Below, piece by piece: positions 43,879 through 55,962 of a DNA stretch of 64,000 nucleotides (position 1 is the stretch's first letter; the number at the start of each line of letters is the position of its first letter). Below the pieces are notes generated by a model that worked only from the letters and a program-made list of their open reading frames with translations, was not told the origin of the DNA and made no database searches. The position numbers and the translations under genes were made by a program. The DNA is from Neoroseomonas lacus (GTDB lineage: Bacteria; Pseudomonadota; Alphaproteobacteria; Acetobacterales; Acetobacteraceae), in contig NZ_BMKW01000007.1 in NCBI RefSeq assembly GCF_014644535.1, positions 62,001-126,000 of the forward strand, read 5' to 3'.

Positions 43879-45999
43879 ATGGGAATCGTGTCAGCCCGCC
43901 GAGACGAGACGATGCCGCAGGGCGCCGATGCGCTGGCACCATTGATGGCGCCGATCGGCGAATTGAAGGGCGTCAAGGAGAACGATGCCCGGCTGATGGC
44001 CAAGGCCGCCGGCGGGCCGCGCGTGCTCGACCTGCTGCTGCACCTGCCCGAACGCTACCTGACGCGGCGACGGATCACCCGCCCCTCCCATGCGCTGCCC
44101 GACTCCGAGGTGCTGATCCCGGTCGTCATCAGCTCCCACAAGTCCGGCCGATCGGGCCAGGGCCGTCCCTATGTGCGGGTGCGCTGCGAGGCGGAGGGCG
44201 AGTCGGTCACCGCCCTATTGATGAACTGGCAGAAGCCCTGGGCGGAAAAGGCACTACCGGTGGGTGCGACGCGCTGGTTCGCCGGCACGCTGAAGGAGGA
44301 AGGCGACGATTGGGTCGTGGTGAACCCGCAGATCTCGGCGAAGGAGGACGGCATCCCCGAGGTCCAGCCGGTCTGGCCGCTGACCGGGGCGCTCGGCCTG
44401 CCGCAGGTGACGCGGGCGATGGGTGCGGCCCTCGCCCTGCTGCCGGAATTGCCGGAATGGCAGGATCCGCCTTTGCTGCGGCGCGAGAAATGGCCCGGCT
44501 TCACCCCTGCCCTGCGCGCCATCCAGGCGCCCGAGGCCGAACCCGGCGCGGCACCCCGCCATCGCCTAGCCTATGACGAGTTGCTGTCGGGCCAGATCGC
44601 GCTCGGCCTGGTGCGACGGAGGTCGCGCGAACGGCCCGGCCGGGCGCTGGCCGGTGGCGAGACGCTGCGGGCGAAGGCGCTGGCGGCCTTCGGTTTCCCG
44701 CCCACCGAGGCGCAGCGCCAGGCCGTCGCCGAGATCGATGCCGACCTTGCCGCGCCCCGCCGCATGCTGCGGCTGCTGCAGGGCGATGTCGGCGCCGGCA
44801 AGACGCTGGTCGCGGTGATGGCGATGCTGCGGGTGGCCGAGGCCGGCGCGCAGGCCGCGCTGATGGCGCCGACCGAATTGCTGGCCCGGCAGCATCTGCG
44901 CACCTTCGAGAAACTGTGCGACGCGGCGGGGGTGAAGGTCGCGCTGCTGACCGGCAGCGTGAAGGGCAAGGAACGCAAGCGTGTGCTCGCGGGGCTGGCG
45001 GATGGGTCGATCCCGCTGGTGCTCGGCACCCATGCGCTGTTCCAGGAGGGCGTCGTCTTCCATGACCTGGCGCTGGCGGTGGTGGATGAACAGCACCGCT
45101 TCGGCGTCGCCCAGCGGCTGATGCTGGCCGAGAAGGGCGACGCTGTGGACATGCTGGTGATGACCGCCACGCCCATCCCGCGCACGCTGCTGCTGACGCA
45201 ATGGGGCGAGATGGCGGTCAGCCGCATCGCCGGCAAGCCGCCGGGCCGCCAGCCGATCGTCACCCGCATCACCAGCCAGGACCGGCTGCCGGACATCATC
45301 GAGCGCCTCGGCGAGGCGATCGGGCGGGAGGAACGCGCCTATTGGGTGGTGCGGGCCATCAGCGGGTCCGAGCGCGACGATTCCGTGGCCGCCGAGGACC
45401 GCTTCGCCGAGCTGAACGGGCGGTTCCCCGGTCTGGTCGGCATCGCCCATGGCATGCAGGACATCGCGGTGCGCGAAGCCTCGCTCGCCGATTTCGCGGC
45501 CGGGCGCACCAAGATCCTGGTGGCGACCACGGTGATCGAGGTCGGCGTCGATGTGCCCGAGGCGACGATCATGCTGATCGAACAGGCCGAACGCTTCGGC
45601 CTGGCGGCGCTGCACCAGCTGCGCGGGCGGGTCGGGCGCGGCTCGAAGCCATCCTCCTGCCTGCTGGTGCATTCGCCGGGACTGACGGAAGGCGAGAAGC
45701 GGCGCCTGCTGGTGCTGCGCGACTCCGATGACGGCTTCGTCATCGCAGAGGAGGATCTGCGTGCGCGTGGCGGCGGAGACGCGCTCAGTACGCGCCAGGC
45801 CGGGCTGCCCGGGGCGAGGCTGCTCGACCCGCGCGAGGACCCCGAGGAGTATGCCCGGCTGGTCGACATCGCCCATGACGATGCCGAGGTGCTGCTGGGG
45901 CGCGACCCGGCGCTGGCCTCGCCGCGCGGCCAGGCGGCGCGGCTGCTGCTTGCCCTGTTCGGGCACGACATCACCATGGCGCCGCTCGACGCGGGGTAG
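43879..45999 (+). CDS. recG: ATP-dependent DNA helicase RecG
   Basis: Remodels stalled forks and branch-migrates Holliday junctions; 706 residues. N-terminal wedge/OB domain (about 1-190), Walker A LLQGDVGAGKTLVAVMAM (about 297), DEQHRFGVAQRL, TATPIPRTLLL, and the C-terminal helicase and TRG regions (QLRGRVGRG). The first ATG at 43879 was kept; a second at 43912 would remove 11 residues. The gene is convergent with the acdS group. Confidence 0.96.
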   Translation: MGIVSARRDETMPQGADALAPLMAPIGELKGVKENDARLMAKAAGGPRVLDLLLHLPERYLTRRRITRPSHALPDSEVLIPVVISSHKSGRSGQGRPYVRVRCEAEGESVTALLMNWQKPWAEKALPVGATRWFAGTLKEEGDDWVVVNPQISAKEDGIPEVQPVWPLTGALGLPQVTRAMGAALALLPELPEWQDPPLLRREKWPGFTPALRAIQAPEAEPGAAPRHRLAYDELLSGQIALGLVRRRSRERPGRALAGGETLRAKALAAFGFPPTEAQRQAVAEIDADLAAPRRMLRLLQGDVGAGKTLVAVMAMLRVAEAGAQAALMAPTELLARQHLRTFEKLCDAAGVKVALLTGSVKGKERKRVLAGLADGSIPLVLGTHALFQEGVVFHDLALAVVDEQHRFGVAQRLMLAEKGDAVDMLVMTATPIPRTLLLTQWGEMAVSRIAGKPPGRQPIVTRITSQDRLPDIIERLGEAIGREERAYWVVRAISGSERDDSVAAEDRFAELNGRFPGLVGIAHGMQDIAVREASLADFAAGRTKILVATTVIEVGVDVPEATIMLIEQAERFGLAALHQLRGRVGRGSKPSSCLLVHSPGLTEGEKRRLLVLRDSDDGFVIAEEDLRARGGGDALSTRQAGLPGARLLDPREDPEEYARLVDIAHDDAEVLLGRDPALASPRGQAARLLLALFGHDITMAPLDAG

Positions 46000-46315: not shown

Positions 46316-47335
46316 TCACCCGTTGCGATAGGTGTAGCTGTAGCCATTGAGCGCCGGCGCACCCCCCAGATGCGCGTAGAGGACCTTCGACCCCTCGGGG
46401 AAGTAGCCCTTGTTGACCAGGTCGATCATCCCCTGCATCGATTTGCCCTCATAGACCGGGTCGGTGATCATCGCCTCGGTTCGTGCGGCGAAGCGGATCG
46501 CCTCATTCGTCTCGTGGCTCGGCACGCCGTAGGCGGGGTAGGCATACCCATCGAGGATGACAATCTCGTCGTCGCGCACGGCGCGGCCGAGTTCGACCAG
46601 TTCGGCGGTGTTGTCGACGATCTCGCGCACCTGCTGGCGGGTCTGCACCGGGGTGCCGGAGGCGTCGATGCCGATGACGCGGTCGGCGCGGTTGTCGGCG
46701 GCGAAGCCGACGATCATGCCGGCCTGGGTCGAGCCGGTGACGACGCAGACGATGATGTAGTCGAAGCGGATGCCCATCTCGGCTTCCTGCCGCCGCACTT
46801 CCTCGGCGAAACCGACATAGCCGAGCCCGCCGAACTTGTGCACCGAGGCGCCGGCCGGGATGCCGTAGGGCTTGCCGCCGGCATCCTTCACCGACTGGAT
46901 GGCGTCTTCCCAGCTCTTGCGGATGCCGATGTCGAAGCCGTCGGGCACGATGCGGCTGTCCGCGCCCATCAGGCGGGTCAGCAGGATGTTGCCGACGCGG
47001 TCATAGACGGCGTCCTCATGCGGCACCCAGCTTTCCTGCACGACGACGCACTTCATGCCGATCTTCGCCGCCGTCGCCGCCACCATGCGGGTGTGGTTGG
47101 ACTGCACGCCGCCGATCGAGACCAGCGTATCGGCATTCGAGGCGATCGCGTCGGGCACGATGTACTCGAGCTTGCGCAGCTTGTTGCCACCGAAGGCCAA
47201 GCCGGAATTGCAGTCGTCGCGCTTGGCGTAGATCTCGACCTTGCCGCCCAGCGCCGCGGTCATGCGCGGCAGGTGTTCGATCGGCGTCGGGCCGAAGGTC
47301 AGGGGAAAACGTTCGAATTTGTCGAGTCTGAGCAC
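46316..47335 (-). CDS. acdS: 1-aminocyclopropane-1-carboxylate deaminase
   Basis: PLP enzyme that splits ACC, the plant ethylene precursor, into ammonia and 2-oxobutyrate; 339 residues, matching the canonical 338. [11 protein letters not shown] carries the PLP lysine (residue 52) and GGVQSNHTR carries the conserved Ser79. [13 protein letters not shown] keeps the Tyr-Glu pair, and the leucine in [10 protein letters not shown] is kept. These Glu and Leu residues separate true ACC deaminases from D-cysteine desulfhydrases. The GTG at 47333-47335 has an AGGAG site 8 bases upstream and fits the family N terminus. An Lrp-type regulator is divergent, the standard acdS/acdR layout. Confidence 0.93.
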
Positions 47336-47474
47336 CGATCGCTCCTGTCGTGGAAGGGAGCGGAGGCTTAGCATCGGCACCCTGAAAGGTGCCCTCGAAT
47401 ACAATGCCATTACTGCCCTTGGCTTCCGGCCCGCTGGCGTTTAGGTCATGTACTTCGTCATATGGACGCAAAAA

Positions 47475-47954
47475 ATGGAAGATCCTTCCAACGCCTCCGA
47501 GCTCGACCGCATCGACCACCGAATCCTCCAGCGGCTGCAACGCGACGGGCGGATCTCGAATGCCGAATTGGCCGGGGCCGTGAATGTCAGCCCCGCCACC
47601 TGCCATCGCCGTACCCAGCGGCTGTTCGAGCGCGGCTACGTCACCGCCGTGCGGGCGCAGATCGCCCCGCAACTGGTCCATCGCGGCACGCTGGTGATCG
47701 TCGGCGTCGAACTCGACCGCTCGACGCCCGAGAGCTTCGCAGCCTTCGAGGACGCCATCAGGAAGCTGAGCTTCGTGCTGGACTGCCACCTGGTCGCCGG
47801 GGATTTCGACTTCTTCCTGAAGATCCGTGTGCGCGACATCGCCGATTTCAACCGTCTGCACGGCGAGCAGCTTCTGCGCCTGCCGGGCGTCCGGCAGACC
47901 CGCACCTTCTTCGTCATGAAGGAGGTGGTGGACAACGCGCTGCTCGATTTTTGA
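47475..47954 (+). CDS. acdR: Lrp/AsnC family regulator of acdS
   Basis: Transcription regulator, 159 residues from the ATG at 47475 (nine more if the in-frame ATG at 47448 is used; neither has a strong ribosome site). Helix-turn-helix: residues about 15-60, with LDRIDHRILQRLQRDGRISN and VSPATCHRRTQRL. The RAM ligand-binding domain follows (VGVELDR to the C terminus). It is divergent from acdS with about 110-140 bases between. In pseudomonads and rhizobia AcdR senses ACC and activates acdS; the same role here is inferred from position and family. Confidence 0.88.
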   Translation: MEDPSNASELDRIDHRILQRLQRDGRISNAELAGAVNVSPATCHRRTQRLFERGYVTAVRAQIAPQLVHRGTLVIVGVELDRSTPESFAAFEDAIRKLSFVLDCHLVAGDFDFFLKIRVRDIADFNRLHGEQLLRLPGVRQTRTFFVMKEVVDNALLDF

Positions 47955-48068: not shown

Positions 48069-48797
48069 TTGCCCGCGCTGATCGAGATCGAGCGCCTGAC
48101 CAAGCGCTTCGGCGACTTCACGGCCGTGGACGACGTGTCGTTTTCCGTCGATCGCGGGGAGGTCGTGGGCTTCCTCGGCCCGAACGGTGCCGGCAAATCC
48201 ACCACCATGAAGATGCTGGCCGGCTTCGTGACGCCCACCGCCGGCACCGCGCGGATCTGCGGGAAGGATGTCGTGGACAGCCCGGTCGCGGCCAAGCGCA
48301 GCCTGGGCTACCTGCCCGAGGGCGCGCCGACCTACCCGGAAATGACCGTCACCGGCTTCCTGCGCTTCGTCGCCAGTATCCGCGGCTATCGCGGCGGGGA
48401 GGCGGATGAACGGGTCGAGGCCGCGATGCAGCTGACCCAGCTCGAGGGCGTGCAGCTGCAGCCAATCGAGACGCTCTCCAAGGGCTTCAAGCGCCGCGTC
48501 GGCCTCGCGCAATCCCTGCTGCATGACCCGCCCGTACTGGTGCTGGACGAGCCGACCGATGGCCTCGACCCCAACCAGAAGCACGAGGTCCGCCAACTGA
48601 TCCGCCGCATGGCGCCGCAGAAGGCGATCCTGATCTCGACCCACATCCTCGAGGAGGTCGAAGCCGTGTGCAGCCGCGCGATCGTCATCGCGGGCGGCAA
48701 GGTTCTCGCCGACTCCACCCCGGCCGGGCTGGTCGCGCCGGGCCGTTCGCTGGAACAGGTGTTCCGCGACCTGACCATGCCGAAGGACGCCGCCTGA
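48069..48797 (+). CDS. ABC transporter ATP-binding protein (GldA-like)
   Basis: 242-residue ATPase. Walker A GPNGAGKSTTMKML (about residue 38), signature LSKGFKRRVGLAQSLL and Walker B VLVLDEPTDGLDPNQ. The start is TTG at 48069-48071 with AGGGGA 8 bases before; the upstream ATG at 48000 lies in non-coding sequence. It is the first gene of a five-gene run (ATPase, permease, GldG-like, DUF4340, Nudix). Pairing with a GldF-like permease and GldG-like protein makes it a gliding-type ABC system rather than a classic importer. Confidence 0.9.
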   Translation: MPALIEIERLTKRFGDFTAVDDVSFSVDRGEVVGFLGPNGAGKSTTMKMLAGFVTPTAGTARICGKDVVDSPVAAKRSLGYLPEGAPTYPEMTVTGFLRFVASIRGYRGGEADERVEAAMQLTQLEGVQLQPIETLSKGFKRRVGLAQSLLHDPPVLVLDEPTDGLDPNQKHEVRQLIRRMAPQKAILISTHILEEVEAVCSRAIVIAGGKVLADSTPAGLVAPGRSLEQVFRDLTMPKDAA

Positions 48798-49525
48798 TGG
48801 GTGCGCTGATCGTCGCGCGGCGCGAACTCGCCGGTTATTTCGCCACCCCGGTCGCCTATGTGTTCATCGTCATCTTCCTGATGATGGCGGGCGCGCTGAC
48901 CTTCACCCTGGGCGGCTTCTTCGCCCGCGGGCAGGCCGACCTGTCGCCCTTCTTCACCTTCGTGCCCTGGCTTTTCCTGTTCCTCGTCCCCGCCCTCACC
49001 ATGCGGCTGTGGGCCGAGGAACGGCGCCTGGGAACCATCGAGCTGCTGCTGACCCTGCCGCTGCCGCAATGGCAGGCGGTGGTCGGTAAGTTCCTCGCCG
49101 CCTGGGCGTTCTGCGCCATCGCATTGCTGCTGACTTTCCCGCTGGTGCTGACGGTCAACTACCTCGGCGAGCCGGATAATGGCGTGATCGCCGCCGGGTA
49201 TCTGGGCTGCCTTCTGGTAGCCGGCGCCTTCCTGGCGGTGGGTGCGGCGATGTCGGCGATGACCAAGAACCAGGTCGTCGCCTTTGTCCTCGCCGTCGCC
49301 GTCTGCTTCCTGTTCACCGTGGCGGGCAGCCCCATCATCAACGACTTCCTCTCGCAGCGGATGCCGGTGCTGGCGGAGGTCGCGCGCGGCCTGTCGATCA
49401 CCGAACGCTTCAACTCCCTGGTGCGCGGCGTCATCGCGCTGCGCGACGTGGTGTTCTTCGGCTCCTTCATGGGCTTCTTCCTGTTTGTGAATGCCGTGGT
49501 CATCGACCACCGGAAGGCGGACTGA
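48797..49525 (+). CDS. ABC transporter permease (GldF/ABC-2 type)
   Basis: 242 residues with six predicted transmembrane helices, starting MGALIVARRELAGYFATPV. The ABC-2 membrane family pattern EERRLGTIELLLTLPLPQWQ (coupling segment) is visible near residue 75. The ATG overlaps the ATPase TGA by one base (TGATG), so the two are coupled. It forms the membrane channel of the GldA/F/G-like system. Confidence 0.9.
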   Translation: MGALIVARRELAGYFATPVAYVFIVIFLMMAGALTFTLGGFFARGQADLSPFFTFVPWLFLFLVPALTMRLWAEERRLGTIELLLTLPLPQWQAVVGKFLAAWAFCAIALLLTFPLVLTVNYLGEPDNGVIAAGYLGCLLVAGAFLAVGAAMSAMTKNQVVAFVLAVAVCFLFTVAGSPIINDFLSQRMPVLAEVARGLSITERFNSLVRGVIALRDVVFFGSFMGFFLFVNAVVIDHRKAD

Positions 49526-49529
49526 CCCG

Positions 49530-51476
49530 ATGAGCGGTACCTCCTCTCCCTCCCCTCGCCCGGGCACGCGGCGGATCTGGTCCTCGGCGCTCGGGCTCGT
49601 CGCGGCGGCCGCGCTGGCGATCGGCGTCAACATGCTGGTCGACCGGGTGGCGCCGCGCGCGCGCGTCGACCTGACGCAACAGCATCTCTACACCCTGTCG
49701 GACGGCACGAAATCCGTGCTGCGCGGCCTGCAGGACCCGGTGACGCTGCGGCTGTTCTATTCGCGCCGGCTCGGCGCGGCGGTGCCGGCCTATGGCTCCT
49801 ATGCCGAGCGCGTGCGCGCCATGCTGGAGGAATACGTCGCCGTCTCCGGCGGCAAGATCCAGCTGGAAGTGCTCGACCCCGAACCCTTCAGCGAGACCGA
49901 GGATCGCGCGCTCGCCTTCGGCATGCAGGGCGTGCCGGTCGACCAGTCGGGCGAGCAGATCTATTTCGGTCTTGCCGGCAGCAACCTGCTGGATGACGAG
50001 CGTTCCATCCCGTTCTTCCAGCCCGACCGCGAACGCTTCTTGGAATTCGACCTGACGCGGCTGGTCTATGAACTGTCGAACCCGCGCCGGCCGGTGGTGG
50101 GGGTGATGTCCACCCTGCCGCTGAACGGCGATCCGCGCATGATGATGATGATGCGCGGCGGCCCGGCGCCGCAGCCCTTCGCGGTAATGCAGACGCTGCG
50201 CCAATTCTATGCCGTGCAGGACGTGCCGCTCGACACCCAGCGTATCCCGGACGACGTACAGGTGCTGATGGTGGTGCATCCGCAGAACCTGTCGGATGCG
50301 ACGCAATACGCCATCGACCAGTTCGTCATGCGCGGCGGCAAGCTGATGGTCTTCGTCGACCCGTATTCCGAAGGCCAGGCCTCGCGCCCCGGCCCCGGTG
50401 GCCGGCCGCCCACCGATACCGCTTCGCAGCTCAACCGCCTGCTGAATGCCTGGGGCGTCGATGCGCCCTCCGAGGCGGTGGTGCTCGATCTGCGCGGCGC
50501 CTGGCGGGTGCGCGCCAACCCGACCGACCGGGTGCAAGCGGTGGACTACTTGGCCTGGTTCAACCTGCAGGGCGATTCCATCAACAGTTCCGAGGTGGCG
50601 ACGGCACAGCTGAACCAGGTGACAGTCGCCTCAGCCGGCCATCTGCGCCGGCGTGACGGGGCCACGGTGGAATTCGTGCCGCTGCTCCAGAGCAGCGAGC
50701 GCAGCATGCTGGCCAATGTCGAGCGTGTCCGCGAGAACCCGGACCCGGCCCGCATCCTCGCCGAGTTTCGCCCAGAGAACCTGCACCGGACCATCGCCGC
50801 GCGGGTCCGCGGCGAGCTGAATTCCGCCTTCCCCGACGGCCCGCCGCCGCCGCCCGAGGGCAGCGAGCGTCCGGCCGATTTCCCCGCCCATCGCGCCCAT
50901 AGCGACGGCGCCGCCAATCTGGTCGTTTTCGCCGATGCCGATCTGCTGGAGGACCGCTTCTGGGTGCGTACCCAGGACTTCTTCGGCCAGCAGGTGGCAA
51001 CGCCGTTCAGCGACAATGGCTCGCTGGTGGCGAACATCGTCGACACCTTCGCCGGTGGCGACGCGCTGATCTCACTGCGTTCGCGCGGTGAATCGATCCG
51101 TCCCTTCACCGTGGTGGACGATATCCGCCGTGACGCCGATGCGCGTTTCCGTCAGACCGAGCGCGAGTTGACGGAACGCCTGCAGCAGACCGAACGCCGC
51201 CTGCGCGAACTGCGTCAGGGCCAGGGCGGCGAGCGCGGCCAAGGTGCCGCCGTCATCACGCCGGAACAGCGCGCCGAGATCGACGCGGCACGCGCGCAAA
51301 TCCTGCAGACACGTCAGCAGCTGCGCGCCGTGCAACTCGACCTGCGGCGGGACATCGAGCGTACCGAAGTCTGGCTGCGCGTCGTCAACATCGCCGCGGT
51401 GCCGTTGTTGCTGGCCTTCTTCGCTATCGGCCTAGGCATCGCCCGGTCGCGCCGCCGCAGCGCGGCGCGGTCCTGA
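49530..51476 (+). CDS. GldG-like ABC auxiliary membrane protein
   Basis: 648 residues. N-terminal helix (about 16-37) follows the signature start of GldG proteins. LTQQHLYTLSDGTKSVLRGL and LRLFYSRRLGAAVPAYGSYA then lead into the large periplasmic intracellular-transport-like domain. A coiled-coil, Gln/Arg/Glu-rich segment (about 545-615) precedes the C-terminal helix (about 620-640). The run of five methionines near residue 205 is odd. It lies four bases after the permease. In Bacteroidetes GldA/F/G are needed for gliding; alphaproteobacteria lack that machinery, so the role here is unknown. Confidence 0.87.
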   Translation: MSGTSSPSPRPGTRRIWSSALGLVAAAALAIGVNMLVDRVAPRARVDLTQQHLYTLSDGTKSVLRGLQDPVTLRLFYSRRLGAAVPAYGSYAERVRAMLEEYVAVSGGKIQLEVLDPEPFSETEDRALAFGMQGVPVDQSGEQIYFGLAGSNLLDDERSIPFFQPDRERFLEFDLTRLVYELSNPRRPVVGVMSTLPLNGDPRMMMMMRGGPAPQPFAVMQTLRQFYAVQDVPLDTQRIPDDVQVLMVVHPQNLSDATQYAIDQFVMRGGKLMVFVDPYSEGQASRPGPGGRPPTDTASQLNRLLNAWGVDAPSEAVVLDLRGAWRVRANPTDRVQAVDYLAWFNLQGDSINSSEVATAQLNQVTVASAGHLRRRDGATVEFVPLLQSSERSMLANVERVRENPDPARILAEFRPENLHRTIAARVRGELNSAFPDGPPPPPEGSERPADFPAHRAHSDGAANLVVFADADLLEDRFWVRTQDFFGQQVATPFSDNGSLVANIVDTFAGGDALISLRSRGESIRPFTVVDDIRRDADARFRQTERELTERLQQTERRLRELRQGQGGERGQGAAVITPEQRAEIDAARAQILQTRQQLRAVQLDLRRDIERTEVWLRVVNIAAVPLLLAFFAIGLGIARSRRRSAARS

Positions 51477-51488
51477 GGAGCACGACAG

Positions 51489-52574
51489 ATGAACCGTCGT
51501 CAGCTTCTCCTGCTCAGCGGCGCCGCGGTCGTGGTGGTTGGCGGCGCGCTGCTGCTGAACCCGGCCGAACGGCCCGCCCCCTCGCCGGCCGGGGCGGCGC
51601 TCGCCTTCCCGGGCCTGGCGCAGCGGCTGCAATCGGCCGCGAAGATCGTCGCCACGCGCCAAGACGGCACGCTGGAAGTCGCCCGCCGCGGCGAGACCTG
51701 GGTGCTGCCCGCCAAGGGCGGCTATCCGGTGCGGCAGGAGAAGGTGCGCGAGCTGCTCGTCGGCCTGACCGAACTGCGCCTCGTCGAACCGCGCACCGCC
51801 AATCCCGACATGCTCGACCGCCTCGGCCTTGATGACCCGACGCGGGCCGGTTCGACCGCTACGCTGCTGCGCGTGCTCGATGCGCAGGACGCTGTGATCG
51901 CCGAGTTGGTCATTGGCCGGCGGCGCGTGCGCACCCAGGGCAATGTGCCGGAAAGCGCCTTCGTGCGGCGCCCGAACGAGAACCAGGCCTGGCTCGCCGA
52001 AGGGCGCATCCCGGTCGATTCCGACCCGCAGCTCTGGCTCGACCGCGACATCGCCAACCTGCCGCGCGAACGCGTCCGCCGCGTCGCCATCAACCGCACC
52101 GGCGAGCCGGCGCTGGTGCTGACCCGTGGCGAGGGCCCCGACGGCAAGTTGCAGGTCACCGAGCCGGCCGACGCCCCGCCGACTGATGAGACGAGCCTCG
52201 ATGAGGTCGGCCGTGCCTTCGAATTCCTCACCTTCCTCGATGTGAAGCCCGAGGCGGACGCCCCCGGCGAGCCGCTGGGCGAAGCGCGGTTCGAACTGAC
52301 CGACAACCTCGCCGTCGTGGTGCGGCCGCGCAAGGCGGGCGAAACGATCTGGATCGCCCTCGCCGCCGAGGGCGATGACGAGGCGGCGCGGCTGAACGCC
52401 CGATGGCGCAGCTGGGCCTATCAGGTCGGGCCGTGGAAGGAGAAGTCCTTCGTGCCGCAGATGGCCGACCTGCTCCGCCAGGAGCCGACCCCGCCGGCCG
52501 CCGAGACGCCGGCCGACGATGTGCCCGCCGCCGACGCGCCAGCGGCGCCGGATACGCCGCCGCGGCCGCAGTGA
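51489..52574 (+). CDS. DUF4340 domain protein
   Basis: 361 residues with an N-terminal hydrophobic signal or anchor (LLLLSGAAVVVVGGALLL). A DUF4340 region of repeated beta-rich units then follows (about 30-320), including VDSDPQLWLDRDIANLP, and an acidic, Ala/Pro-rich tail. DUF4340 proteins commonly follow gldG-like genes. It is probably periplasmic and anchored. It lies 12 bases after the GldG-like gene and overlaps the next gene by four bases. The function is unknown. Confidence 0.87.
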   Translation: MNRRQLLLLSGAAVVVVGGALLLNPAERPAPSPAGAALAFPGLAQRLQSAAKIVATRQDGTLEVARRGETWVLPAKGGYPVRQEKVRELLVGLTELRLVEPRTANPDMLDRLGLDDPTRAGSTATLLRVLDAQDAVIAELVIGRRRVRTQGNVPESAFVRRPNENQAWLAEGRIPVDSDPQLWLDRDIANLPRERVRRVAINRTGEPALVLTRGEGPDGKLQVTEPADAPPTDETSLDEVGRAFEFLTFLDVKPEADAPGEPLGEARFELTDNLAVVVRPRKAGETIWIALAAEGDDEAARLNARWRSWAYQVGPWKEKSFVPQMADLLRQEPTPPAAETPADDVPAADAPAAPDTPPRPQ

Positions 52575-53008
52575 CCGGCCGCGAATACCCCGACCGCCCC
52601 TGGGTCGGCATCGGCTGCATCGTCTTTCGCGACGAGCATGTCCTGCTGGTGCGTCGAGGCAAACCGCCGCGCATCGGCAGCTGGTCCATTCCCGGTGGCG
52701 CGCAGCATCTCGGCGAGACCACCGAGGCGGCCGCGCGGCGTGAGTTGTTCGAGGAAGCCGGCGTCGAGGTCGGCCCCCTGGCGCTGGCGACCGTTGTCGA
52801 TGCGATCAGCCATGATGATGAGGGGCGCGCGCTCTATCACTACACGATCATCGACTTTGCCGCGGTCTGGGTTTCCGGCGAGGCCCGCGCCGGGGACGAT
52901 GTCAGCGAGGTCGCCTGGGCGCGGCCGGAGGAGCTGGCCAACTTCACGCTGACGCCGGCGGCGCAGCTCGCCATCGCCGCCGCGAGGGACGCGCTGCTCC
53001 GCGCCTGA
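52571..53008 (+). CDS. Nudix hydrolase
   Basis: 145-residue cytoplasmic hydrolase of nucleoside-diphosphate-linked substrates. The Nudix box is complete: GAQHLGETTEAAARRELFEE followed by AGV, with the metal-binding glutamates present. It starts at GTG 52571-52573 inside the end of the DUF4340 gene (GTGA junction), so it is coupled to the ABC operon. NDP-sugar, ADP-ribose or mutagenic nucleotide are possible substrates; none can be chosen. Confidence 0.92.
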   Translation: MTGREYPDRPWVGIGCIVFRDEHVLLVRRGKPPRIGSWSIPGGAQHLGETTEAAARRELFEEAGVEVGPLALATVVDAISHDDEGRALYHYTIIDFAAVWVSGEARAGDDVSEVAWARPEELANFTLTPAAQLAIAAARDALLRA

Positions 53009-53089: not shown

Positions 53090-53350
53090 ATGAACAAGCC
53101 TCTTGCCCTCTGCTGCTTGGCCTTTGCCGCCATCGCGCCGGCGGGCATAGCGCAGAGCACGCCTGCCGTCGTCTATTGCGTCAACAACCGCATCATGGTC
53201 GAGCGCTCCACATTGTCTCAGATGCAAAGCGGCCGCGGTCATTCCGAGATCTGCATCATCGGTCCGTCCTTCGACTTCCAACCGGATGGCGTCACCTGGG
53301 TGCGCCAGAATCTGCGATCGGATGTCGGCGGGGCCTGTCGCTGCCGATAG
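53090..53350 (+). CDS. Small secreted protein of unknown function
   Basis: 86 residues. Clear signal peptide (KPLALCCLAFAAIAPAGIA, cut near AIA-QS), leaving about 65 residues. Four cysteines remain after it: in VVYCVNN and SEICII, and two in GACRCR at the end, so disulfides are possible in the periplasm. No ribosome site of good quality is seen. I do not recognise a family. Confidence 0.55.
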   Translation: MNKPLALCCLAFAAIAPAGIAQSTPAVVYCVNNRIMVERSTLSQMQSGRGHSEICIIGPSFDFQPDGVTWVRQNLRSDVGGACRCR

Positions 53351-53450
53351 GCCATGGCATCGCCTGGCGCGCGCCGCGCGTCCATGGCCCTTCCCCAGGC
53401 GGCGCCGGCACGGCAGGCTCTGGCACAAACAAGATGCCGGAGATTCTGCC

Positions 53451-54464
53451 ATGCCGCTCACCCCCGCCCTGAACCGCCGCCGCCTTCTCGGCGGCATCGC
53501 CGGCCTCGCGGTGGCACCTGGCATCGTCCACGCACAGCCGCTGGCCGGCGGCCGCCCGGTGCGCGTGATCGTCCCCTTCCCGCCAGGCGGCGCGGTGGAC
53601 ATCACCAGCCGGCTGTTTGCCGAGCGCCTCGGCGCCGTGCTGGCCCAGACGGTCGTAGTGGAGAACCGTGCCGGCGCGGGCGGGATGATCGGCGCCGATG
53701 CGCTGGCGAAATCGGACAAGGATGGCAGCGCGATTGGCCTGATCAGCGCGACCACCTATTGCGCCGCGCCGTTCATGCATGCACGCATGCCCTTCAATCC
53801 GCAGCAGGACCTGACCCCGATCACCCAGCTGACGGACGGGGCGCTGCTCTGCGTGGTGAATGCAGAAACCGCCCGGCGCAACGGCTGGACCGATTTCCGC
53901 GCTCTCGTGACCTGGTCACGCGCCCATCCGGAGCAGGTGCGGATGGGATCCTCAGGCTCGGGCACCTCCTCGCATCTCAACATCGCGGCGGTGAACCGCT
54001 TCGCCGATGCGAAGATCCTGCACGTGCCCTATCGCGGTGGCGGTCCGGCCATCAACGACCTGCTGGCCGGCACGATCGACATGATGTTCGACGTCATGCC
54101 GGCGCTGATGCCGCATGTGACGAGCGGGGCCTTCAAGGCACTGGCCGTCTCCTCCGGCGACCCCATCCCGCTGCTGCCCGAGATCCCGGGCATGAAGGCC
54201 TTTGCCGATCTCGGCCTGGGCGAGCATTCGCTGGTCAACTGGAATGTCGTCACCGCTGCCGGCGGCACACCAGCCCCGGTCGCCCAGCGCCTGTTCGAGG
54301 CCGCGCAGACGGTCGCGCGCCAGCCTGACTTCGTCGAACGCCTGCGCCCGCTCGGCTACGGCATTGTCCTGAGCGACAGCCCCGCCGCGGCGGCCCAGAT
54401 GATCCGCGCCGAGACGCCGCGCTGGCAACGCCTGGTGGAAATCTCCGGCGCGCGCATCGAATAG
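53451..54464 (+). CDS. Tripartite tricarboxylate transporter substrate-binding protein (Bug family)
   Basis: Periplasmic carboxylate receptor of 337 residues. The signal has a Tat-like NRRRLLGGIAGLAVAPGIV ending HAQP. Bug-family segments are VRVIVPFPPGGAVDITSR, ENRAGAGGMIGADALAK, HVPYRGGGPAINDLLAG and the C-terminal RAETPRWQRLVEISGARIE. No TctA or TctB membrane genes are nearby, so it is one of the orphan receptors common in Acetobacteraceae and Burkholderiales. The ligand is unknown. Confidence 0.93.
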   Translation: MPLTPALNRRRLLGGIAGLAVAPGIVHAQPLAGGRPVRVIVPFPPGGAVDITSRLFAERLGAVLAQTVVVENRAGAGGMIGADALAKSDKDGSAIGLISATTYCAAPFMHARMPFNPQQDLTPITQLTDGALLCVVNAETARRNGWTDFRALVTWSRAHPEQVRMGSSGSGTSSHLNIAAVNRFADAKILHVPYRGGGPAINDLLAGTIDMMFDVMPALMPHVTSGAFKALAVSSGDPIPLLPEIPGMKAFADLGLGEHSLVNWNVVTAAGGTPAPVAQRLFEAAQTVARQPDFVERLRPLGYGIVLSDSPAAAAQMIRAETPRWQRLVEISGARIE

Positions 54465-54967: not shown

Positions 54968-55903
54968 TCATGCCCAGAGTCGTTCGTTCTGCAGACCAGT
55001 GTAGAGCGGCGCGACAAAATCCGCATAGCCATTGAAGAGCCGCGTCGGGATGCGCTCGCTGGTGCCGATCACCCGCTCGCTCGCCTGGCTCCAGCGCGGA
55101 TGGCTGACCTCGGGATTCACATTGGCCCAGAAGCCGTATTCCTGCGCCTGGATGCGCTCCCAGAAGGAGACCGGCCGCTGGTCGGTCAGCTTGATGGTGG
55201 TGATGCTCTTGCCGGCCTTGAAGCCGTATTTCCACGGCTGGTGGAAGCGGATCGGCCCGCCATTCTGCGGCGGCAGCAGCTTGCCATAGGCACCCACCAC
55301 GAGGAACGACAACTCGTTGCCGGCCTCCTCGATGGTGCAGCCCTCGGTGTAGGGCCAGGGGTACCAGGATTGGCGCAGCCCCGGCATCACCCGCGGCAGC
55401 GCCGCCGTCTCGAACACCACATACTTCGCCGAGCCGAGCGGCTTGACCTGCGACAGCAGCGCCGAGAGCGGAAAGCCGGTCCAGGGCACCACCATCGACC
55501 ACGCCTCGACGCAGCGCAGCCGATAGACGCGCTCCTCGATCGGCATGCTGCGCAGCAGGTCCTCGATGCCGAATTCGCGCGGCGTCTCGACCATGCCCTC
55601 GACCTTCACGGTCCAGGGGCGCTGCGGCAGGCGCTGGGCGGCGCGGCTGATGCCCTTGTCGGTGCCGAACTCGTAGTAGTTGTTGTAGGTGGTGGCATCG
55701 CGCTCGGCGGTGATCTCGCGCCCCGCCTCGTAGCGCGTGTTGCGCATGGCTGGCGGCAGGCCGGCGGCGTCCTGGCCCAGGGCGGGCGATGTGGCAAGCA
55801 GCCCCGCCCCCAGGCCAAACGCCTTGCGCCGGCCGAACACCAGATGCTCGGCGGTGGCCTCGCGCTCGGGGATCTCCCAGCCACGCGGAATGCGGATCGG
55901 CAT
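54968..55903 (-). CDS. msrP: Protein-methionine-sulfoxide reductase catalytic subunit MsrP
   Basis: Periplasmic molybdoenzyme (formerly YedY) that repairs oxidised methionines in envelope proteins; 311 residues. Tat signal FGRRKAFGLGAGLL near residue 25, with twin arginines. The molybdenum-ligating Cys is in YRLRCVEAWSMVVPWTGFPL (about residue 130). The C-terminal region WKYGFKAGKSI is conserved. The start at 55901-55903 has a GGAGG site upstream. The partner quinol-linked msrQ is absent nearby. Confidence 0.93.
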   Translation of the reverse strand: MPIRIPRGWEIPEREATAEHLVFGRRKAFGLGAGLLATSPALGQDAAGLPPAMRNTRYEAGREITAERDATTYNNYYEFGTDKGISRAAQRLPQRPWTVKVEGMVETPREFGIEDLLRSMPIEERVYRLRCVEAWSMVVPWTGFPLSALLSQVKPLGSAKYVVFETAALPRVMPGLRQSWYPWPYTEGCTIEEAGNELSFLVVGAYGKLLPPQNGGPIRFHQPWKYGFKAGKSITTIKLTDQRPVSFWERIQAQEYGFWANVNPEVSHPRWSQASERVIGTSERIPTRLFNGYADFVAPLYTGLQNERLWA

Positions 55904-55962
55904 GCTTATCCCTCCGTTATGCCTCAGAGATCGGTCTGACCGGCCCGAGGTCAAGCGTCGCG

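Follow-up and report, generated by a model that had tools for sequence, protein, structure and literature searches.

What does an operon whose first three proteins resemble gliding components do in an alphaproteobacterium, and does the Nudix hydrolase gene at its end share in the job? The question is raised by a locus of Neoroseomonas lacus at 48069–53008 of the window, the whole stretch of 64,000 nucleotides analysed here, in which five open reading frames on the plus strand encode an ABC ATPase, an ABC-2 permease, a GldG-like protein, a DUF4340 protein and a Nudix hydrolase (Table 1). The original prediction described the five genes as tightly packed with partial overlaps, and the coordinates bear this out: ATPase and permease genes overlap by one base in TGATG (permease ATG at 48797), the DUF4340 and Nudix genes share the GTGA at 52571–52574, and the two remaining junctions are gaps of 4 nt (permease to GldG-like) and 12 nt (GldG-like to DUF4340). 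A search for the same five-gene order in relatives recovered it, Nudix gene included, at all 49 other DUF4340 loci of the order, apart from one ATPase gene absent at a contig end, so the arrangement is not a product of chance. The operon is real.

Table 1 Features of the operon and its surroundings, with positions in the window
Feature	Position	Strand	Assignment or remark
recG	43879-45999		Upstream of cassette
PALP-family (PLP enzyme) gene and divergent Lrp/AsnC regulator	46316-47954	- (PALP-family gene)	Between recG and cassette
ABC ATPase, GldA-like	48069-48797	+	Pfam ABC_tran; NCBIfam GldA best match
ABC-2 permease, GldF-like	48797-49525	+	Pfam ABC2_membrane_3 and _2; NCBIfam GldF best match
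GldG-like protein	49530-51476	+	Pfam ABC_transp_aux and DUF7088; NCBIfam GldG best match
DUF4340 protein	51489-52574	+	Pfam DUF4340
Nudix hydrolase, Nudix box intact	52571-53008	+	Pfam NUDIX
86-residue frame	53090-53350		Downstream of operon; no Pfam match; similar frames at five loci of the order
TctC-type solute receptor	53286-54464		Just downstream
Molybdopterin-binding oxidoreductase	54968-55954		Opposite strand to the TctC-type receptor gene

The distance from recG to the Nudix gene is 6575 nt here versus 4569–4762 nt in 11 congeners (a twelfth shows only a partial recG match), which makes the PALP and Lrp/AsnC pair look like an insertion in the lineage of the window.

All five proteins exceed the Pfam cut-offs, with 214.2 bits against 34.7 for ABC_transp_aux (PF09822, the GldG-type domain), 49.9 against 25 for DUF4340 (PF14238) and 71.2 against 21.1 for NUDIX (PF00293); the first two of these are single matches in the N. 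lacus genome. The NCBIfam gliding models match below their curated cut-offs in every case: GldA scores 271.1 bits (cut-off 402.6) on the ATPase, GldF 191.3 (288.5) on the permease and GldG 93.7 (389.85) on the GldG-like protein. The first three proteins are therefore homologues of the gliding components that fall outside the gliding equivalogs.

To place the core genes we compared genomes at two levels. For the order, 150 genomes were searched, all labelled as one family, and DUF4340 was found in 50, spread over 16 of 41 genera; the named relatives, which come from another collection, belong to the Roseomonas group of the Acetobacteraceae (Neoroseomonas, Roseicella, Belnapia, Caldovatus, Roseococcus and Elioraea). 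In the 49 family loci other than that of the window, the ATPase, permease and GldG genes stand upstream of DUF4340, with one ATPase absent at a contig end. At the level of the class, 143 of 385 genomes had a DUF4340 match, and 60 loci, one per family label, were taken from them for comparison. Profile matches placed the four core genes in order and on one strand in 53 of these 60. Three of the seven others end at contig edges (L142, L154 and L161), and four lack one or two profile matches (L110, L114, L137 and L167); at L110 the DUF4340 gene was seen by Pfam and missed by our custom profile. GldG relatives are also found in genomes from metagenomes that bear labels such as Nitrospirae and Gammaproteobacteria, and in a GldG tree the 50 family proteins separated from 55 class proteins as one clade (support 1.0). 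The proposal that the ABC pair, the GldG-like protein and the DUF4340 protein form one conserved unit outside Bacteroidetes thus stands: the first four genes encode a widespread, little-studied bacterial membrane machine of a known kind. It must often be dispensable, since 100 of the 150 order genomes and 242 of the 385 class genomes had no DUF4340 match. Clustering of neighbouring genes disclosed no functional partner, as each of the 40 clusters listed was confined to 8 or fewer of the 60 class loci.

Two further observations concern this spread. One metagenome genome titled Nitrosovibrio sp. (L223) carries a five-gene locus that includes the Nudix gene and shows 60% GldG identity, for which reason its title may be wrong. 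Behind its Walker motif, at the C-terminal end, the window ATPase is about 75 residues shorter than 41 of 55 ATPases from the class and 4 of 49 from the family; a tie between the short form and the Nudix gene was considered and rejected, since the long form occurs in four family loci (L060, L062, L066 and L067) and the short form in 14 of the 55 class loci.

The predicted structure of the GldG-like protein (mean pLDDT 89.8) comprises, in order, an N-terminal helix, a thioredoxin-like domain (DUF7088), a GIFT domain (ABC_transp_aux) and long C-terminal helices; in the model, the first helix and one at the C-terminal end are probably membrane-spanning. Foldseek listed protein disulfide oxidoreductases and thioredoxins in a table without residue ranges, and these presumably correspond to the N-terminal part. 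A CXXC motif occurs in none of the 62 aligned GldG sequences, and 59 of them, the window protein included, contain no cysteine at all, which leaves the thioredoxin-like part without redox activity; we take it as a putative binding domain. Structural superposition of GldG residues ~184–515 aligned 212–230 residues with chains of oligosaccharyltransferase complexes (Z 16.4–19.4) and with IFT52 (Z 18.1 and 18.0). The table names only the complexes, and we take the matched chains to be OST48. The eight GIFT matches at Z 16.4–19.4 are followed by two of site-one protease at 14.5 and then by values from 13.2. By its fold, the GIFT domain links the machine to eukaryotic proteins of glycosylation and the cilium.

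The DUF4340 protein was modelled with a pLDDT of 94.2 as one N-terminal helix and a beta-rich body; the model suggests that the helix anchors the protein in the membrane and that the body is periplasmic. Foldseek and VIA-align returned weak, unrelated matches only (best VIA match Z 5.2, r.m.s.d. 21.5), and this lack of a convincing fold match is no proof of a new fold. A sequence search of the PDB at an E-value of 1 found no relative of the GldG-like or DUF4340 protein, nor did either match PHROGs. The structure-related alignments cover 60 of 77 and 61 of 68 listed sequences, in addition to the window protein.

Based on these features we propose, with a probability of roughly 0.55, that the products of the first four genes make up an ABC machine of the inner membrane, equipped with an extracytoplasmic arm, that serves envelope assembly or upkeep, and that the Nudix gene is an independent neighbour. 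The ATPase would drive the ABC-2 permease, and the GldG-like and DUF4340 proteins would together form the periplasmic arm, which would relay the ATPase stroke to a component of the envelope and so help to build or maintain the envelope. Gene set, domains and folds rest on sequences and structure models, and from these we infer topology, arm, stroke and envelope role. That two large extra proteins are kept with the ABC pair over great distances points to a mechanical action, a push or a pull, on something outside the inner membrane. The stroke is modelled on the likeness to other ABC-2 systems, among which NosDFY pairs an ABC-2 transporter with a partner in the periplasm. The envelope role, which we would put at about even odds, also draws on the Flavobacterium Gld data described below and on Verrucomicrobium spinosum, where one study describes the DUF4340 domain of a DUF4340 protein as essential (PMC12283558). 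An envelope role, as in the proposed envelope export or maintenance machine, remains plausible for the four core genes, and a part in it is not supported for the Nudix enzyme. To call the system undescribed goes too far for its first three proteins, which are Gld homologues with a GIFT domain among them, and is fair for the role here: the accessible portions of the literature on GldG, GldA/F/G, DUF4340, GIFT and PA4037–PA4040 gave no function for the cassette, nor did they name a substrate or a phenotype for any copy in alphaproteobacteria. DUF4340, the hallmark of the core cassette, is present in 143 of 385 class genomes, yet we found no known substrate for the machine.

The strongest competing explanation, which we consider unlikely, is that the operon encodes a conventional exporter for small molecules such as drugs or lipids, to which the GldG-like and DUF4340 proteins would be accessory subunits. 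The operon does contain an ABC-2 permease, and its ATPase matches the DrrA drug-resistance model at 210.5 bits; this score lies below the DrrA cut-off of 312.45, however, and is surpassed by that of the GldA model (271.1 bits). In 53 of 60 class loci, moreover, the ABC genes keep the company of the two large extra proteins, and to our knowledge such proteins are unusual for plain drug pumps.

A second alternative treats all five genes as one functional unit, in which the Nudix hydrolase would act on a nucleotide or NDP-linked compound that the transporter uses or yields. Inside the family the linkage is strict: the Nudix gene directly follows DUF4340 in 50 of 50 cassettes (49 others and that of the window), a Nudix box is present in all 50 (the pattern accepts G or S at the last position, and four loci have S), and at 39 loci, with 11 exceptions, the in-frame Nudix start codon overlaps the DUF4340 stop. 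The Nudix gene is probably on the same transcript as the cassette, and such unbroken linkage with so frequent an overlap exceeds what idle adjacency usually keeps.

Outside the family the two are found apart. No Nudix gene adjoins the cassette at any of the 60 class loci, of which 59 can be judged (L149, with 161 nt behind DUF4340, has too little room, and L127 has 618 nt), and no Nudix box was found in flanks of up to 1.5 kb at 30 class loci, which overlap the set of 60, and 30 phylum loci. Among 80 named loci, a set that shares at least some genomes with the other samples, the Nudix gene was present in 36, absent from 32 in which DUF4340 is followed by room of 500 nt or more, and not judgeable in the remaining 12. 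A search of the class sample with the Nudix protein gave relatives at an E-value of 1e-20 or better in 96 of 372 genomes, at 39–58% identity outside the genome of N. lacus itself. In 56 class genomes, counted from the places listed, both Nudix and DUF4340 genes are present and never adjacent: they lie on different contigs in 49 and on one contig, at least 78 kb apart, in 7. Two more genomes (G264 and G427) also hold both and were kept out of this count, as their DUF4340 places are missing from the listing. Around 19 such unlinked Nudix genes, no cassette gene was found within 1.5 kb in any case, and the neighbours vary; one gene recurs at 7 of the 19 loci, and the one example scanned is a short-chain dehydrogenase.

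The reverse separation is seen within the order. Searching the 150 genomes with the window Nudix protein gave 56 matches at 46% identity or more and at least 117 bits (one, in G068, with a stop codon inside the matched stretch), the others reaching at most 43% and 82 bits. These 56 genomes are the 50 with the cassette plus six without a DUF4340 match, and no cassette genes were found around the six Nudix-only loci. In a Nudix tree that takes in 55 of the 56 family proteins, these 55, linked or Nudix-only, group together (support 0.87), and a single outside protein falls inside the group.

The linkage between Nudix gene and cassette is thus real but clade-specific, and the five-gene unit appears quite improbable. 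The claim that the enzyme is part of the job is not supported, and the GTGA overlap, present as described, does not bear the suggestion of an NDP-linked substrate drawn from it, as the Nudix and DUF4340 genes are unlinked in relatives, an outcome that the original prediction itself named as refuting. We conclude that the Nudix hydrolase is probably not part of the machine and is more likely an independent enzyme that became a neighbour in one clade of the family; setting it apart from the core removes one false lead on the substrate. Because the linkage in this clade is unbroken and often coupled, we keep a small chance of true partnership: in one clade the Nudix enzyme might have been recruited as a partner of the envelope machine, its translation coupled to that of DUF4340 so that the two proteins stay in proportion, to remove a nucleotide product of the machine's envelope substrate. 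This is a long shot, below even the five-gene unit; if true, the clade would run a modified GIFT-domain ABC system, one whose eukaryotic fold relatives sit in a glycan-transferring complex.

How an independent Nudix gene may have come to stand behind the cassette is suggested by recG. In four of the six Nudix-only loci (L170, L171, L172 and L175) the Nudix gene lies 6–53 nt behind recG, and at L173 it lies 1.4 kb behind; L174 has no recG nearby. In the genome of the last (G133), where the Nudix gene stands away from recG, the adjoining frame looks like MutY, on our reading. This survey shows only loci with a Nudix match of at least 80 bits. In 36 of the 50 cassette loci, the fetched stretch includes recG upstream, in the same orientation as the cassette, so that there the cassette separates recG from the Nudix gene; a 40% match at L057 was left out of the 36 as a paralogue, the recG of that genome being elsewhere.

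A RecG tree was built from 80 genomes, with G069, G139 and G029 lacking a usable RecG and five RecG pieces shorter than 500 residues. All 53 tips that carry the cassette or the Nudix gene alone form one group free of other tips, within which the Nudix-only genera fall, on weak support (0.24 for the whole group, 0.62 for the part without g8). Most simply, the Nudix gene would have come behind the cassette once, in the ancestor of one family clade. For the Nudix-only genomes, loss of the cassette is the simpler reading; alternatively, the order recG–Nudix may be older and the cassette inserted between the two, and the tree nodes that decide between loss and insertion are weak.

The last explanation, that the genes belong to gliding or type IX secretion machinery, has a chance close to nil: it has the homology to GldA, GldF and GldG in its favour and the sub-threshold scores of all three proteins against it, as well as the lack of GldL and GldM matches in the N. 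lacus genome, an absence that is weakly supported, since the GldL model was silent in control genomes too and GldM matched one control genome, below its cut-off.

Several known systems help to place the four-gene envelope machine that we favour. For its neighbour, the closest counterparts are the free-standing alphaproteobacterial Nudix hydrolases, presumably COG1051-like, which share 39–58% identity with the window enzyme and do not adjoin a cassette. In Pseudomonas aeruginosa, PA4037–PA4039 are, we assume, the ABC and GldG partners of PA4040. One report identifies PA4040 as a DUF4340 protein and PA4041, the next gene, as a mandelate racemase, in contrast to the Nudix gene found here (PMC8088628). 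One point mutation each is reported for PA4037 (PMC7078477) and PA4039 (PMC4918941), and no function for the region PA4037–PA4040 appeared in the accessible literature.

IFT52 and OST48 have the GIFT fold in common with the GldG-like protein; both are eukaryotic and come without an ABC transporter, and the common fold gives no information on function. One paper expands the name GIFT to GldG, intraflagellar transport (PMC10191852). Among the close relatives are GldA, GldF and GldG of Flavobacterium (TIGR03522, TIGR03518 and TIGR03521), the best NCBIfam matches of the homologous ATPase, permease and GldG-like protein, whereas the locus studied here stays below all three cut-offs, has a DUF4340 gene after GldG and comes from a genome without a GldL or GldM match (weak controls). 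GldJ and GldK are envelope lipoproteins. According to a Flavobacterium study, GldF and GldG are required to bring GldA to the membrane, the stability of GldJ and GldK requires GldA, and that of GldK also requires GldF (PMC9127263).
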